This document shows positions 18,270-26,784 of a stretch of DNA of 64,000 nt, one piece after another. The translations under genes were made by a program, and so were the position numbers. The notes under the pieces are model-generated. The model was not told the origin of the DNA. It saw nothing but the letters and a program-made list of their open reading frames with translations, and ran no database searches. Source of the stretch: Aporhodopirellula rubra (GTDB lineage Bacteria > Planctomycetota > Planctomycetia > Pirellulales > Pirellulaceae); the NCBI RefSeq assembly GCF_014192335.1, contig NZ_JACHXU010000007.1, forward strand, positions 1 through 64,000, given 5' to 3'. Positions within the stretch are counted from its first letter, which is position 1. Each line of letters starts with the position of its first letter.

Positions 18270-20264
18270 CTACACCCGGTGGAGCCACAGGAACTGATAC
18301 GGCTCTAACTGCACGTCCTTCGCCGTCGTGATCGTCTCGCCGGTATACAGGTCTTCAAAAAACCGCCCCATGCCGGCCGTCCGCAGACGGTTGCTGTCGA
18401 TCGTTTGCGGATACTCACTGAAGTTCGAAACGACGATCACACGATTGGCCGCTTGAGCTCGAACGTACGCGAGCAACTGACTCGATTCGGTCGCGATCAA
18501 TTCCATTTCGAGCCCCGCGAAGGCAGGCGTCTTTTTACGGATCGCGATCAGCTTCTGCAGCGACGTGAAGATGCGTGCGCGGATCGAACCGTCATCGCCG
18601 AGTTCGTCTAAGAACGTCCACTGCATTTTGGGACGGTGCACCCAACGCGTGTCTCCCGCTTTGGCCGGATCTTTGACGAAATCATAGTCATTCAACGCTC
18701 CCCACTCTTCGCCGAGATAGATCAGTGGAATGCCACCGACGCTGAGCATGGAGGCGTTGAGTAAGAGGATACGCCGGATCGCGAGTTCCTTAAGATCTTC
18801 CCGGTCTTGCTCAATCGCTTGTTCGAGCCCCGCGAGAGACGCGAGCGTGCCACTGATCCGCATGTCGCCGGTATCGACGTTGTGTTGAAACGGAACACCT
18901 CGCGCGAACGAACCTTCGAATTGACCGGTGTAAAACGCATTGAGAAAATGCCGGTGATGGTAGGCGTTGATTCCCACCGCCGCAGCGTCTTCATCATCAA
19001 ACGTCCAACCGATATCGTCATGGCAACGCAGGTAATTCACCCACGTGGTGCGCTGCGGCAGTTTGTGCCGACGGGCGAGCGATCGCTGCAGCAACTTCGT
19101 ATCTCGCGTCGCCAGAGATTCCCACAACAACGCCATCAGTGTCGGGTTGTACGACGTTTGACACTCGTCTTCACCGACGTATCGAACGACTTCGTCCGGA
19201 TGCACGATCGCCTCACTCTTGAAGACGAGCCCCGGCGCCGCAATTCGCGAACATGCGTTAAATGCCTGGATGATTTTGTGTGCTTCGGGCAAATTCTCGC
19301 ACATCGTCCCCATCTGTTTCCAAATGAACGCGACCGCATCGAGCCGCAGGATGTCAACGCCCGTGTTCGCGATGAACAGCATCTCCGCCAACATCGCCCG
19401 GAAGACTTCGGGATTTCGATAATTCAAATCCCACTGGAAACTGTTGAACGTTGTCCATATCCAACGTTGCATTCCGTCATGCCACGTGAAGCTGCCACGC
19501 CGCACCGTCGGAAAGATTTCGCGAAGCGTCCGTTCATACTGATCCGGCATCGTCCGGTCAGCAAAGATGAAGTAATAGTCCGCAAACTCCTCGCTGCCCG
19601 ATTGAGCCTGTTGAGCCCAGTAGTGATCATCCGCGGTATGGTTGAAGACGAAATCGAGCACCAAGAGGATGCCGGCTTCGCGAAGTGACTCAGCGAGTTG
19701 TTTGAGATCCTCGATCGTTCCCACCCGTGGATCGACGCTGCGATAGTTACTGATCGCATAACCGCCGTCATTGTTACCGGGCCGAACTGCGAACAGTGGC
19801 ATTAGGTGCAGGTAGGTCAGACCGAGCTTTTGAAAGTAAGGAATCTGATCACGTAGACGACCAAGGTTCTCGCTGAACAGGTCCACATAAAGCGCGCCAC
19901 CGACCAGTTTTTCGGACGTGTACCATCCGGGGTTGTTCATTCGATGTCGGTCGGTCTCACGGAGCGACTCGTCTCGCATCCGCCATCCGCGAACCATCGT
20001 CATGAGGATCTGTTCGAGGTGATAGAAAAAATCCCACTTGTCCCCATATAGCTCAACGAGCAGCCCGAAGAGACGGGGCCAATGCCGCTGCAAACGTTCC
20101 ATTACCTCATCGATCTCGGCCTGCTCTGCACCTTCGGACTCCCAGAACGCTTCGAGCGCAGGCAGCATCCGTTGCAATGCGACAAACGCGCGAGAGTCAC
20201 CCCCTCGTTTGGCAACATCTCCGGTCGTGGCGTTCTTGGTGGAATCGAGTTTCAGGGCAATCAT
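18270..20264 (-). CDS. Amylosucrase-type GH13 enzyme
   Basis: The 664-aa protein has the helical N-terminal domain of GH13_4 enzymes ([14 protein letters not shown], residues ~73-86) before a TIM barrel. Conserved blocks are [11 protein letters not shown] (~204), [12 protein letters not shown] with the nucleophile Asp309, LVFKSEAIV with acid/base Glu351, and [11 protein letters not shown] with Asp416. The [13 protein letters not shown] block and overall length (Neisseria amylosucrase has 636 aa) support this. Amylosucrase transfers glucosyl units from sucrose onto alpha-1,4-glucan and releases fructose. The gene follows fructokinase and sucrose-phosphate synthase on the same strand. Sucrose hydrolase activity is the main alternative. 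Confidence 0.87.
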
Positions 20265-20525
20265 GTCAAGTCAGGTGGATATCGCATGTTGGCGGGCTTC
20301 AATCATCTCGATCGACGCGTCCGGACGACCATTCATGGCCGCGAATCGAACGGATCGTGGTTTTGCGTGGGGAAGTTTTCCGTGACAGGATCTATCGAAC
20401 GGGGAACCGAACGACACAACAGGAAGTCTCTTTTGCCCAACGGGGCCCCAACCTCATGGGCGCAGTCAACCAAAAGGATATACGTCGTGGCTGACCACTT
20501 GTCACGCGTCTAGGACAGAATCGGG

Positions 20526-22787
20526 TCAACTCGCCGATTGTGCGGCAGCATCGTTCGCGATTTGCGGCTGATTCTGATCCGTCGGGTTGGTGTCCTCTTT
20601 CGAGGAATCGGCTTCGACGCGGTCGTTGGGGATCCGAATGTGATTGAGGAAATCGTAGTATTCGATCCCCTCGAGAACACCTCTAGCGTGGTGCCCCTCG
20701 GCAAAATAGATTCGAGGAAGCCGACGGAGCTTCTCCAACTCAGGACTGTAATTTCCAACCACAACCCCGAGGGTAGCGCCCTTGAGCATCCCCTCATCGT
20801 TGCCACAATCTCCCGCCACGAGCATGTGCTCCGGTTCAAACCCCCACCGGTAGGCGAGGTGCCGCAACGAAAGCTCGCTGCCGCCTCGAATCGGGATGAT
20901 GTCCAAGAACGATCCGAGTGACAAAATCGCGTTCACTCGCAGCCCCGCTTCACGCAGCGCCCGCCGGATCTGATCGACCGAGGGAATCACCTCGGGATCG
21001 ATTCGATAGCTGATTTTGAACTCCGTTTGGTCCTTGTCTTTCTGCAAGAAAAGGCCCGGCATGTCGTCGAGAACTTCATGAACCAGTTTACGGTTCCAAT
21101 GATGGGCGATCTGTTGATGCCACGATCGGTCCGGCGTGAGATCGCGACCGTAATACAACTCCGTTCCGACCGCTGCGGACAAAACATCCGGACGCGGCAA
21201 TCCGAGTTCGTTAATCAAACTCATTGCCTCGCTGAGAGACCGCCCGGTGTCGATTCCAAACCCGACGTCCTTCCCGGCATGCTTCATCAGATCAACGAAT
21301 TCGTTCAACGCTTCCTCGTCACCGGTTAGCGTGTTGTCCAAGTCCGTCATGATGATTCGGTCGAACTCCGGTAATCGCTTCGACGTTCGGCTGTCGGCCT
21401 GCGACAGCGCGGGCGGGGCCGACGTGTCCACGATTTCCGAAACATCACGCAGATATCGATCCACGTGATTTTTCCAACTGTAGTGTTCACGTGAACCATC
21501 GATACCTGCCTTGGACCAGGTTTCCCACTGTTCCGGTTCGGTCAAACAACGCATGATGGCGTGGTCGATCGAGTCGGGATCAAACGGATCGATCAACAAA
21601 CCGTTCTGGCAGTTGGCGATGATATCGCGAGGTCCGCCGTCATTCGTTGCCACGATCGGAACCCCCGACGCTGCCGCTTCGAGCAACGTCAAACCGAACG
21701 GTTCGGTCATCGCCGGATTGACGAACACACCCTTTTGACGCGCGACGAGCCGATACAAATCGGGAACATCTGTCGGTCGGTGCGATTTCGGATACGCGAC
21801 TTTGCCATACAAGTCGTACACGTCGATCAATTGCAGAACGTTCGTGATCACCTTCCGCTGCGACGGAGCGAGTTGACGCAAATCATCTCGCCCACCCATG
21901 ACGAGAACAAGGTTAGCCGCCTCCTGCATTTGAGCGTTCTCGCCATACACTCGAACCAGCATTTCAAGGTTCTTTCGCTCGTCCGGCCGAGCCATCGCTA
22001 ACACGATCGGCTTGTCAGGTTCCCGGAGGAACGGCACCAATTTGTCGTAGATAGGTGGCAACGGTTCCGACGGATCATCCGGGTAAAAATGAGTCAGATC
22101 GACTCCCGGTGGAATCACTTCCATCCGATCCGGTTGATAGTGATGGTAGATCGAGTACTGCTGTTCGACTTCTTGGCCGGTGCTCGTGATCACCAACGCC
22201 GCGGTTTCCAGAGCCGTTTCTTCCGCTTCCTCACGCCGCTTGAACTTGAACTTCTTCTCGAGATCCTCAGGGTTCTTCTTGGATTTCGACTTAGATGCCA
22301 AGAGCCGTTCGCGTTTAACACGACCGAGAGAGTGCCCGGTGAACGCGTAGGGGATATGCAACAAGCGAGCGAGTTGGGCGCCGGCGTAACCTGCGTCGGC
22401 GTAGTGCCCATGGATCAAATCAGGTAATCCCGTGCGACGATAGTGCCCGAGCATCTGATCGATGAACGTTTCCAAATACGGCCACAGCGCCTCTTTGCGC
22501 AGATAGCGACGCGGACCAAAAGGGACACGGATGATCTTCGCCTTGTCGCACAACACCTCTTCGACTTGGGCATAGTCCGGACCGACTCGGTCATCAAGAA
22601 GTTGACGGGTGACTAACTCGACCGACGCGACGTCGTCACGGGTAGCGAGTTCGCGAGCGAGTTCGAGTACGTATTTGATCTGGCCGCCGGTATCGGCGTC
22701 ACGCCCCAATTCGGGGTCGTGCCCGCGAACAAGACCATGAAGGCTGAGTAAAGTGATTCGGAGCCCGTCGTTGTCAGGCGATTGCAT
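20526..22787 (-). CDS. Sucrose-phosphate synthase with C-terminal HAD phosphatase domain
   Basis: Residues ~1-470 form a GT4 glycosyltransferase. [10 protein letters not shown] and [19 protein letters not shown] mark the SPS N-terminus, [14 protein letters not shown] the fructose-phosphate side, and [20 protein letters not shown] the nucleotide-sugar site. Residues ~490-720 form a HAD-IIB domain. It has DLDNT, GIDTGRS and [12 protein letters not shown], so the phosphatase motifs appear intact. The enzyme makes sucrose-6-phosphate from UDP/ADP-glucose and fructose-6-phosphate. It lies 48 bases after a fructokinase gene. A separate phosphatase occurs in the divergent fusion protein. Confidence 0.9.
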
Positions 22788-22835
22788 ATCTGATTTTAGG
22801 GGTTAACGAGTCAAAGGTTCGAAACGGTCAAAGAT

Positions 22836-23807
22836 TCAAGTAGTCGAGGATGGCAAACGATAGAAGTGCGGATCGTCACACGTCGCTCCCTTGAGGGAGC
22901 AAACTTTCGACGCAAACGCGACCGCATCATGCAGCGAATTGGTGAAGGGACGCCCGGTCAAAATGCCATGCATCACGACGGCGGCGAACGCGTCACCCGC
23001 ACCAACCGGATCTTCCATCTTCTCCGGTTCCGGTGATCGGACACACAACGGCTCGCCACAACCGGGCGTGTAACAAAGAGCGCCTTCGGCTCCGAGGGTT
23101 ACGAGCAACCCCGATAACGCGACCTGATCGTTGTCTTTTTCAAATGCACGGCCCGCGGCCATCGTTCGCTCGACCGGATCGCCGCTGCCCTCCCGTCCGA
23201 GTTCGCTCAATTCATCGAGATTCAGTTTGATAAACGAAGCCGACTTCCGGAGTTCGTCGAGGATTGTTGATTCGTAGTGCGGGGCTCGCAAATTAACGTC
23301 GAAAAACGCACTTGCACGAATGGGATCGTGCAAGATCGAGTCACGCATCTTTGTCAGGGTCGACCGGGAACGTTCGTCACGAAACGCGAGCGAACCGTGA
23401 TACAACAGCGCGGGTAAGTCCGCACGATGAGCCGCCGCCATGCGATCGCTAATCATTTCAGACAGTTTGTGGGAAGGCATCGGGATTTGGTCCCACGCCA
23501 CATCGCGAACAATATCGTAGCTGGGCTCACCGTCATTCATCGTCACTTGGACGGTCCCCGTTACGACACCCGGCAAGACCGCAACACCTCGGGTTTCCAT
23601 TCCGAAGCTCTTCATGCGAGCGATTATTTCGTGGCCGAGTTCGTCGTCGCCGACGGCACTGATGAACAACGGATCAACGCCGAAACCTGCAAGGTTCCAA
23701 GCGACATTCAATGGTGCCCCACCAAGAATCCGTCTACCGCCATCTTGCTCTGAAAAACAATCCCACAATACTTCCCCTACGATGATGGCGGCGGGCGAAT
23801 CAGACAT
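22836..23807 (-). CDS. PfkB-family sugar kinase, probable fructokinase
   Basis: The chosen ATG (23807) gives MSDSPAAIIVGEVLWDCF; the frame extends 23 codons further upstream. The family signatures are GGAPLNVAWNLAGFG near the N-terminus and DPVGAGDAFAAVVMHGI with the catalytic Asp near the C-terminus. The GEVLWDCF start and the order of blocks match bacterial fructokinases. The gene is first in an apparent operon with SPS and amylosucrase. Fructose released by amylosucrase would be the natural substrate. Confidence 0.85.
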   Translation of the reverse strand: MSDSPAAIIVGEVLWDCFSEQDGGRRILGGAPLNVAWNLAGFGVDPLFISAVGDDELGHEIIARMKSFGMETRGVAVLPGVVTGTVQVTMNDGEPSYDIVRDVAWDQIPMPSHKLSEMISDRMAAAHRADLPALLYHGSLAFRDERSRSTLTKMRDSILHDPIRASAFFDVNLRAPHYESTILDELRKSASFIKLNLDELSELGREGSGDPVERTMAAGRAFEKDNDQVALSGLLVTLGAEGALCYTPGCGEPLCVRSPEPEKMEDPVGAGDAFAAVVMHGILTGRPFTNSLHDAVAFASKVCSLKGATCDDPHFYRLPSSTT

Positions 23808-23982
23808 GGTCGTATGGGTATCCTTCGTTGTAGTAGCCGGATCAGACGACGCCGCGTGCGTGGAAACGCATCCCAACGTGAACGCCTCCGTCGCCCGCGA
23901 TGAACCACCATCATAACGCCCCGGAAGTGCTCAGCGAACCACTCGGATCCGAACCAAACAACCTGAACTAATTAGTAAAATT

Positions 23983-26784
23983 ATGATTTCAACCAAGCGG
24001 CCACGTGTTTTCGCAACCGATCTCGATGGCACTTTCATCCCGCTCGACGGCGACAACGAATCCAAAGTGGCTCTGGAGCAAATCCGAGGCCAATTGGCGA
24101 CCGGCGATGTTCCGTTCGCTTACGTTTCCGGTCGACACCTCGAATACATCTTTGAGGGAATCATCGAGTACGGCCTCCCAATTCCTGATTACATTTTGTG
24201 TGACGTCGGAACCAGCGTCTACGAAAACACCGCTAAGGATTTGAACCGCCGGGACGGTTTGAACAACGCCCCGACGCAGGAAACACTCGCAGCGAGTTTT
24301 CGCCGAAGCGACAATTTCGATGCCAGGTTGGACCGAATCATCGGCGACACCGACATCGAACGTGTGCGCCGCGAGATCGGTGATTTGCCGAAATTTCGGC
24401 TGCAAGAAAAATTCAAACAGGGCCGACATAAACTCAGTTACTACGTCCCCGCCGAATCGCTCGACGAATGCACGGCAAACGTTCGAACGTATCTCGACGA
24501 GCGGTCGCTGCCCTACGGCATCATCAGTAGCGTTGACCCTTTTAACGGAGACGGCCTCGTTGACGTCCTTCCTAAGGATGTCTCAAAAGCCTTTGCGTTG
24601 AATTGGTGGGGCGAATCACAAAACTACCAAAACGATGAAATCGTATTTTGTGGCGATTCAGGCAACGACTATGCCGCACTCGTCGCGGGATACCGGGCCG
24701 TCGTGGTCGGCAACGCGAGCCGCACTCTCGCCGCGAGCGTGCTTGACGCTCACGAAAAAGCGAACTGGAACGATCGACTCTATCTCGCCGACCGATCGAG
24801 TACCGCGGGTGTGCTCGATGGGCTCCGGTGGTTCGGATTGGTAGACGCCGACAACGACGACAACGCCGCTGGCGAAACCGAGCAATCACTCACACGGCAC
24901 TGGGGAGCCGTCCCTACCGGTTTCCAAAGCACTCGTTTTTCGGTGTTCGCGCCGGCTCATGAAAAACTTTCACTTGAACTCTTCGACAACAACTCTTCCC
25001 AATCTCGATCGCCGGATGCGGGTGCCTCACGTTGCATCGAGATGAATCGGGACAGCGATGGTTTCTTCACTGCAAATGTGACGCCCTGCCACGTCGGCAC
25101 ACAGTACCGCATTGCATTTGACTCCTCATCGACCGACCTGGCACCTGAGCCACCATCGATTCCCGATCCTGCGTCGCGATACCAACCCGAAGGCGTCAAC
25201 GGCGTGTCCGAAGTAGTCAGCAATCAATTCGCGTGGCGGCATGACGATCAGCGCCGCGCCGACCGCGTCGAGGAAATGATCATCTACGAACTGCACCTCG
25301 GTGCGTTCACCGCAGAGGGCACCTACTTGAGCGCCATCGACCGACTCGACGAGTTGGTGGACTTAGGTGTGACGGCAATTGAGCTGATGCCGATCGCGCA
25401 GTGCCCAGGACGATGGAATTGGGGATACGACGCAACGTACTGGTTTGCTCCGATGAGTTCCCTGGGCACACCGGATGATCTACGCCGCTTCGTCGATGCA
25501 GCGCACGCCCGCGGCTTGCACGTGTTCCTGGACGTTGTCTACAACCACCTCGGCCCCGAAGGAAACTACTGGTCAATGCTGGGCAACTATCTTTCGGATC
25601 GACACGGCACGCCTTGGGGCGCCGCTCCCAATTTCGACGATGGGCCCGAAGCCGCCGCGATCCGCCGGTTCGTCATCGACAACGCGATCTATTGGCTCGA
25701 CGAGTTTCATCTGGACGGACTTCGCGTGGACGCGATTCACTGCATGAAAGACGACAGTGAGGAGCACATCACGCGACAATTCGGACGCGAAGTTCGCCAG
25801 TGGTCTCATGCCAACAATCGACGGATCTGGCTCATCGCGGAAACTAACGTTTACGACGCGTCGATGACGGCGCCGCTTGAGGAAGACGGTTGCGGGTTCG
25901 ACGCGCAGTGGGGCGACGATTTTGCTCACGCGTTGTTGGCATGCGTTCGTGCCCACGACCAGTTAACGGTCCGCCGGTACCAACCCCACGTGGACCTGGC
26001 CCGCGCCCTGCACCGTGGATTTGTATTCCAAGGCGATGTCCGTGGCGACCGCGGGCGAGAGGAGATCTCGGTCGCCACCGCCAAACGCGTTGACACGTCG
26101 AGTGTCGTGTACTGCATCCAAAACCACGACTTCATTGGCAATCACCCCCTGGGGCAACGGTTTCACCAAATCACTGCACCGGAGACACAAGCCTCCGCCG
26201 CCGCGTTGCTGATCTTGTCGCCCGCAATCCCGATGCTGTTCATGGGTGAAGAGTTCGCGTGCGAGCACCCGTTTTCCTTCTTCGTGGATTTCGGCGACGA
26301 ATCGCTGCGTCAGGCCGTCGTCGAAGGCAGGCAACGAGAGTACCCGCAACATGACTGGTCAGGCGGAATGCTTCCCACCGAAGAAGTCGCGTTCGACTCC
26401 GCGAGGATCGGCCATGCCGAAGACGGCAACCGCGCTATGCGAAACTGGTACCGTGACATCATTCGCATTCGCAAACAACACGTCGACTCGGGCCTGCTCT
26501 GCGTCGATCACTGCACGACGGTGACGGACGGTGACCGCGGCGTCTACGCTCTAAAGTTCAGCCGTGACGACGAGCATCTGTTTGTCGTCAGCCGACTCGC
26601 CGAAGCCACCTCGGGGTCTCGTCCCCAGGACGATGCGATGCACGAACACGAGTTGGCCGAACTACTCGGCGTGACGGGTGGACTGCCGCCTCGCATCCTC
26701 GACAGCCGGAAGGCCGTTGACGAATCATCCGATGACGCGTTCCGATTGCATCCAAATCACGCCGTCGTTTTTGCCTCGACGTAA
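23983..26784 (+). CDS. Fusion: sucrose-phosphate phosphatase (HAD) + GH13 maltooligosyltrehalose-hydrolase-like enzyme
   Basis: Residues 1-285 are a HAD-IIB phosphatase. ATDLDGT carries Asp13/Asp15, YVSGRHLEYI follows, and FCGDSGNDYAAL (~222-232) is the metal-binding motif. The block from IEYGLPIPDYILCDVGTS resembles bacterial sucrose-6-phosphate phosphatase. Residues ~300-933 are a GH13 enzyme with an N-terminal beta domain (FSVFAPAHEKLSLELF). Its catalytic motifs are DVVYNHLGPEGNYW (~517), GLRVDAIH with nucleophile Asp583, LIAETN with Glu620, and CIQNHDFIGN with Asp716. The GH13 part is closest to TreZ. It diverges from fructokinase-SPS-amylosucrase. No TreY gene is present, so the true GH13 substrate is uncertain. 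Confidence 0.85.
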   Translation: MISTKRPRVFATDLDGTFIPLDGDNESKVALEQIRGQLATGDVPFAYVSGRHLEYIFEGIIEYGLPIPDYILCDVGTSVYENTAKDLNRRDGLNNAPTQETLAASFRRSDNFDARLDRIIGDTDIERVRREIGDLPKFRLQEKFKQGRHKLSYYVPAESLDECTANVRTYLDERSLPYGIISSVDPFNGDGLVDVLPKDVSKAFALNWWGESQNYQNDEIVFCGDSGNDYAALVAGYRAVVVGNASRTLAASVLDAHEKANWNDRLYLADRSSTAGVLDGLRWFGLVDADNDDNAAGETEQSLTRHWGAVPTGFQSTRFSVFAPAHEKLSLELFDNNSSQSRSPDAGASRCIEMNRDSDGFFTANVTPCHVGTQYRIAFDSSSTDLAPEPPSIPDPASRYQPEGVNGVSEVVSNQFAWRHDDQRRADRVEEMIIYELHLGAFTAEGTYLSAIDRLDELVDLGVTAIELMPIAQCPGRWNWGYDATYWFAPMSSLGTPDDLRRFVDAAHARGLHVFLDVVYNHLGPEGNYWSMLGNYLSDRHGTPWGAAPNFDDGPEAAAIRRFVIDNAIYWLDEFHLDGLRVDAIHCMKDDSEEHITRQFGREVRQWSHANNRRIWLIAETNVYDASMTAPLEEDGCGFDAQWGDDFAHALLACVRAHDQLTVRRYQPHVDLARALHRGFVFQGDVRGDRGREEISVATAKRVDTSSVVYCIQNHDFIGNHPLGQRFHQITAPETQASAAALLILSPAIPMLFMGEEFACEHPFSFFVDFGDESLRQAVVEGRQREYPQHDWSGGMLPTEEVAFDSARIGHAEDGNRAMRNWYRDIIRIRKQHVDSGLLCVDHCTTVTDGDRGVYALKFSRDDEHLFVVSRLAEATSGSRPQDDAMHEHELAELLGVTGGLPPRILDSRKAVDESSDDAFRLHPNHAVVFAST

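Follow-up and report, generated by a model that had tools for sequence, protein, structure and literature searches.

A sucrose-phosphate phosphatase fused to a TreZ-derived GH13 enzyme, probably of a sucrose/α-glucan cycle, in Aporhodopirellula rubra

In a 64,000-nucleotide stretch of the Aporhodopirellula rubra genome (contig NZ_JACHXU010000007.1, positions 1 to 64,000; hereafter, the window), one plus-strand gene (23983..26784) joins a HAD-type sucrose-phosphate phosphatase (SPP) to a GH13 enzyme related to the trehalohydrolase TreZ. We read its product, at a probability of roughly 0.6, as a bifunctional protein of a sucrose/α-glucan cycle, in which the GH13 half would cut an α-1,4-glucan beside a leaving group other than trehalose. 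This reading relies on residues lost and gained in the GH13 active site, on the absence of TreY and on a neighborhood of sucrose and amylosucrase genes.

The fusion itself is genuine. The first-pass annotation of this DNA had placed both enzymes in one chain, and the gene is indeed a single open frame from the ATG at 23983 to the stop at 26784, encoding 933 amino acids with family matches to S6PP and TreZ, in a host genome of 8.55 Mb; no in-frame start codon was found upstream. Absence from relatives would have implied an assembly error. The fusion recurs in 12/12 sampled genus mates, in seven genomes of a genus (g54) that has only its class in common with the window genome, and in the records of Rhodopirellula europaea 6C, R. 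sallentina SM41 and R. solitaria CA85, and an assembly artifact is therefore ruled out.

The N-terminal half (residues 7-286; 24001..24840) is, by family and predicted fold, a phosphatase of sucrose-6F-phosphate, matching the Pfam family S6PP (PF05116) at 185.2 bits against a gathering score of 20.3. Both HAD motifs described earlier are intact and correctly numbered: DLDGT at residues 13-17 (24019..24033) and GDSGND at residues 224-229 (24652..24669), the latter also aligned with Synechocystis SPP (1s2o). Between them K150 of KLSYY (24430..24432) aligns with the lysine of KISYH in 1s2o. Residues 5-288 of an AlphaFold model cover all of 1s2o (VIA-align, Z 26.8, 244/244 residues, 3.0 Å). The model, built from a 12-row alignment, is of moderate quality (pLDDT 71.7, pTM 0.56) and weaker in the GH13 half than in the HAD half. 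The domain thus has the motifs and the whole fold in common with known SPPs (PF05116; PDB 1s2o), and differs from them in its weak sequence match to 1s2o (46 bits), in a score below the cut-off of the NCBIfam model for plant and cyanobacterial SPPs (TIGR01485; 79 against 183.65 bits) and in carrying a GH13 tail.

The remainder of the chain (residues 308-933; 24904..26781) is a TreZ-type GH13 module. Its match to the TreZ model TIGR02402 (residues 341-875) reaches 533.7 bits, slightly below the curated cut-off of 538.8, and a weak CBM48 match at its start (residues 308-383) scores 20.4 bits, below the gathering score of 22.4. In the AlphaFold model, residues 308-931 align with TreZ 3vgd over 521 residues (Z 25.6, 5.1 Å). 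D583 (25729..25731) and E620 (25840..25842), named before as catalytic, do align with the nucleophile D252 and the acid/base E283 of Sulfolobus (Sso) TreZ, and their numbering is correct; the third carboxylate, D716 (26128..26130), aligns with Sso D377.

We compared the active site in an alignment of 63 rows, comprising 31 rows of the window protein's own clade, 30 canonical TreZ rows (29 planctomycete sequences and Sulfolobus) and two GlgB-like sequences. Because the motif GNHP (residues 719-722) served to select the clade rows, counts at these positions hold by construction; a tree made without this selection recovers the same 31. Further sequences stand outside the alignment: clade members from G009, G356, G295 and G384 and from the metagenome-assembled genome (MAG) loci L123 and L127, all with GNHP; the near-identical loci L118-L120, L122 and L126; 10 of the 18 canonical-type phylum loci L089-L106 (L093, L095-L101, L103 and L106); and the extra copies L063 and L066. 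In the 63-row tree, made by a quick method, the 31 are united in a single clade (support 100), separate from canonical TreZ, whose stem is long at 0.74 changes per column. A careful tree that sets the 31 against six canonical rows out of the 30 gives the clade support of 100/100.

All 31 clade rows keep the catalytic D252, E283 and D377 (Sso numbering is used for canonical positions throughout), together with the minus-side residues Y152, D153, H192 and W215, and with D308. Three other residues, H311, Y325 and Q378, are present in 30/30 canonical rows and in 0/31 clade rows; the window protein has A648, T662 and F717 in their places. The first two, along with Y326, fall within a remodeled stretch from A648 to R664 (25924..25974) that has gained an arginine, R664, invariant in the clade. 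The third lies in the stretch F717 to H721-P722 (26131..26148), where canonical NHDQxGN has become NHDFIGNHP. Besides R664 (31/31), W478, P788 and H790 are newly conserved outside the picking motif, each in 30/31 rows. A256 is alanine in 22/30 canonical rows and, in the clade, cysteine in 28 and phenylalanine in 3; the D309 position is cysteine in 8/31 clade rows; F352 varies already among canonical enzymes (F in 14/30).

In the available part of a study of Sulfolobus KM1 TreZ (PMC3716775), D252, E283 and D377 are the catalytic residues and W215, A256, Y325, F352 and R353 are selectivity residues; mutations at A259, Y328, F355 and R356, in another strain's numbering, increase glucose formation relative to that of trehalose. 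The counterparts of A256, Y325 and F352 are among the sites whose mutation, according to that text, favors glucose over trehalose. Of the three residues lost throughout the clade, Y325 is the only one that this part of the paper names as a +2 residue; we place H311 and Q378 on the plus side, as probable rather than established members, because they adjoin H312 and D377. The pattern of residues kept, lost and newly conserved across the clade suggests that the glucan-binding (minus) side has been retained and that the leaving-group (plus) side has been rebuilt, in part with new conserved residues.

TreY, the partner of canonical TreZ, is missing. None had been noticed nearby, and a search of the whole genome also found no match over the cut-off, the best hit (54.6 against 498.65 bits) being the neighboring amylosucrase; a TreY elsewhere in the assembly is thereby rejected. 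Among 60 related genomes, 16 have a TreY over the cut-off, and a further set of 13 genomes has none. A TreZ with the canonical signature occurs in 17 of the 60 relatives, 16 of them with TreY (G030 is the exception), versus 1 of 20 clade carriers. Over 31 tested clade-carrier genomes, a count that leaves out six MAG genomes, TreY was likewise found in one, G025, where a separate canonical TreZ lies next to it on C10. Compared with TreZ (TIGR02402; PDB 1eh9, 2bhu), then, the GH13 half shares the fold, the catalytic triad and the minus-side residues; the fusion protein lacks the plus-side residues H311, Y325 and Q378, lacks TreY and is joined to an SPP. Two further TreZ-like matches in the window genome, G000 (C7:326 kb and C21), were rejected, since their highest scores, each below the cut-off, are to GlgB models.

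The neighboring genes were said to concern sucrose and amylosucrase, and family matches bear this out. On the minus strand, divergent from the fusion, lie a PfkB-family kinase (22836..23807 from its first ATG, the listed frame extending to 23876; PF00294, 109.6 bits), which is probably a fructokinase, judging from a match at the level of the PfkB family; a sucrose-phosphate synthase (SPS; 20526..22787; TIGR02472 at 712.6 and TIGR02471 at 362.4 bits, both over cut-off); and an amylosucrase (18270..20264), whose residues 52-662 match Neisseria amylosucrase (1g5a/3ueq) at 719.8 bits. The last match led us to reject TreS or TreY as the identity of this neighboring GH13 enzyme. SPS, SPP, PfkB kinase and amylosucrase thus stand side by side at 18270-26784. 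The SPS carries its own SPP-like C-terminus with intact DLDNT and GDCGND, so that SPP-type HAD domains of two separate families are encoded in the cluster.

The layout of the window is repeated in the Rhodopirellula-group loci L118, L119, L120, L122 and L126 and in L050-L052. Seven g54 loci (L107-L112 and L117) have a different one, with SPS, amylosucrase and fusion in this order on one strand. There the frame of SPS abuts that of amylosucrase; amylosucrase and fusion are separated by 3 to 19 bases in six loci, as the frames are listed, and overlap in L111, depending on the start chosen. In all four genomes of genus g49, a separate SPP diverges from kinase, SPS and amylosucrase, which is the window layout minus the GH13 part. 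A separate SPP follows amylosucrase in G018, G020 and G025. The GH13 genes of G023 (L041:5010-7621) and G025 (L042:10563-13081) have the same pair of genes next to them; by eye, one of the pair is glycosyltransferase-like.

The cluster resembles the sucrose operon spsA-sppA-frkA-amsA of Synechococcus PCC 7002, for which the accessible text (PMC11046441) puts forward the idea that sucrose is buffered into glycogen through amylosucrase. SPS, SPP, fructokinase and amylosucrase, as predicted activities, are encoded together in both. Set against the operon as that text gives it, the SPP here is fused to a GH13 enzyme and is either divergent from the other three genes (window) or third in a tandem (g54). 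Since the window cluster amounts to the four predicted activities of the cyanobacterial operon plus a GH13 enzyme, we read the fusion as the SPP and a putative glucan hydrolase of a sucrose/glucan cycle. SPS and then the HAD half, as sucrose-6-phosphate phosphatase, would make sucrose; amylosucrase would transfer its glucosyl unit to glucan and free fructose, which the fructokinase would recycle. The GH13 half would bind α-1,4-glucan on its minus side and use the catalytic residues of TreZ, so that chains would be trimmed or re-mobilized. As the plus-side pocket is rebuilt, the leaving group would not be trehalose, and this TreZ-descended protein probably serves sucrose and glucan storage instead.

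Genes for these activities also occur together beyond the window. SPS over the cut-off was found in 17 of the 60 relatives, each of them a carrier of the GH13 clade, compared with three carriers among the remaining 43 (G031, G042 and G047); the SPS of G042, at 557 bits, falls below the cut-off of 576. An amylosucrase of the window type (at least 69% identity) occurs in the same 17 relatives, and none was found at E 1e-100 in G031, G042 or G047. SPS is present in 7/7 fusion-bearing g54 genomes, in 0/2 listed g54 genomes without the fusion and in 4/4 g49 genomes. All 24 fused proteins are in genomes with SPS (13 of the genus, G018, G020 with a decayed HAD, G023, G042 and seven of g54). Owing to shared ancestry, these counts cannot be treated as independent.

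Several observations weigh against the proposed cycle, beginning with the distribution of the unfused proteins. No SPS was found in 8/13 unfused carriers, namely G031, G047 and six MAGs of unstated completeness, so that the GH13 activity would not be bound to sucrose. The remaining five (G025 and the four g49 genomes) have SPS, each with a separate SPP gene. We considered whether loss of SPP had simply followed loss of SPS; this is only partly true, since the eight carriers without SPS are unfused, but so are these five with SPS. In addition, because the SPS already has an intact-looking SPP domain, the second SPP may be redundant.

The suggestion of a new GH13 substrate is plausible and partly supported, by the loss of plus-side TreZ residues across the 31 clade rows and by the co-occurrence with SPS and amylosucrase. 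Glucosylated sucrose, put forward as such a substrate, is only one option, given the eight clade genomes in which SPS was not found, and for the same reason glucose or maltose is the simplest candidate. Sucrose is the candidate that would best explain the fusion. In its boldest form, which we regard as unlikely, the clade would have an undescribed specificity and cut α-1,4-glucan beside a defined cap that is neither glucose nor trehalose (most likely sucrose, possibly glucosylglycerate), and, tethered to SPP, would let one protein supply sucrose from two sources, sucrose-6-phosphate and glucan. A more defined alternative, that amylosucrase builds maltooligosyl-sucrose (erlose-like chains) from which the GH13 half frees sucrose, so that both halves yield sucrose, fits the fusion to SPP, the SPS and amylosucrase neighborhood in two lineages and a plus side that is rebuilt yet conserved, as for a specific new leaving group. 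We nevertheless think it improbable, considering the eight clade genomes in which no SPS was found and the three in which no amylosucrase was, and considering that synthesis of such chains by amylosucrase in these cells is an assumption.

The evolution of the fusion bears on a different alternative. Within the 60-genome set, the fusion is found in the window genome, its 12 genus mates, G018, G023 and G042, and close GH13 relatives without the SPP half in G025, G031 and G047. The phylum set (392 genomes, E 1e-105) adds the fusion in the seven g54 genomes and GH13 alone in the four of g49, and among close relatives 11 titled loci comprise five with the fusion and six MAG loci with GH13 alone. 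In the GH13 tree, fused rows are interspersed with unfused ones, implying three changes of fusion state, which the starred branches force. In the HAD tree, which leaves out the G020 remnant, fused and separate SPPs form one family apart from the C-terminal domains of SPS, with long branches and a base whose order is not resolved; the two trees are compatible with a single origin as well as with several fusions. Two genomes have unusual HAD halves. In G020 (L040:8261-10783) what precedes GH13 is a HAD remnant, decayed and lacking both DxDxT and GDxxND; elsewhere in the genome amylosucrase is followed by a stand-alone SPP whose motifs are intact. In G018 (L039:7032-9665) the HAD part of the fused protein has diverged very strongly (branch 2.19, GDGGND), and a stand-alone SPP lies beside SPS and amylosucrase.

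Both halves of the fusion are under purifying selection. Over six pairs, the ratio of nonsynonymous to synonymous substitution rates (dN/dS) ranges from 0.047 to 0.129 in the HAD half and from 0.057 to 0.119 in the GH13 half, with dS near or past saturation in two of the pairs (G003/G004 and G000/G012). A neutral join of neighboring genes, with the GH13 half a generic α-glucosidase or amylase of relaxed plus-side specificity, would account for at least three changes of fusion state and for the decay of the HAD half in G020 beside a separate SPP. Selection on both halves and the near-invariance of several new residues, which are not relaxed, make this quite improbable.

The remaining points that count against our reading concern trehalose. 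Scores of clade proteins lie near or over the TreZ cut-off, 8/20 clade members in the 60-relative set passing it. R353 is partly retained (R in 22/31 clade rows), and H312 is kept in the window protein and in 26/31 rows (Y in 5), an argument against the trehalose site having been lost entirely; H312 would correspond to Deinococcus H332, which is said to recognize the α-1,1 bond. On a glucose, ammonium and vitamin medium R. baltica is reported (PMC3694870) to build up trehalose in 50% sea water and sucrose when salinity is high; the terms TreY, TreZ, TreS and OtsA were not found in the text of that paper. Among the 60 relatives, OtsA (PF00982, E 1e-30) was found in one, TreS over the cut-off in 13 and TreT (PF21269, E 1e-10) in three, none of them in the genus. 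Since trehalose is reported in R. baltica and none of OtsA, TreY, TreT or an over-cut-off TreS was found in the 13 genus genomes, a trehalose role retains a small probability. Sub-cut-off TreS-like matches do occur in genus mates; the two that were scanned (G003 and G006) score higher on other GH13 models, also below cut-off, and were rejected, and G006 has a further TreS-like frame of 606 bits, below the 678-bit cut-off. A treS of R. baltica, RB519, is named and described as induced at high salinity in the portion of PMC2754498 available. It could not be placed, the only frame flagged by a GH13 motif at 235-310 kb of G003, which is probably R. baltica SH1, coinciding with a weak GlgB-like TreZ match.

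A GH13 half that is still a trehalohydrolase, with an unrecognized enzyme in place of TreY and a fusion that links the switch between trehalose at low salt and sucrose at high salt, would draw on that accumulation, on the missing genes for other routes, on the good fit to the TreZ model and on the mostly kept H312 and R353, but we consider it the least probable of the alternatives in view of the loss of H311, Y325 and Q378 in every clade row, the near-strict pairing of TreY with canonical TreZ and not with the clade, the tandem order of SPS, amylosucrase and fusion in g54, a second lineage, and the treS named in R. baltica.

We found no published description of a fusion between SPP and a trehalohydrolase or other GH13 enzyme in titles or abstract openings, in a search that mostly did not extend to subscription journals. 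For the trehalose route of R. baltica, no recognized gene was found among those searched (OtsA, TreY, TreT and over-cut-off TreS). Clade proteins at or over the TreZ cut-off may be named trehalohydrolases even though their residues and context speak against it, and trehalose pathways of planctomycetes may therefore be wrongly assigned. With the sucrose/α-glucan cycle as the preferred reading, the fusion would provide a concrete enzyme at the junction of sucrose synthesis and the turnover of glucan, in marine bacteria that build up sucrose under high salt.

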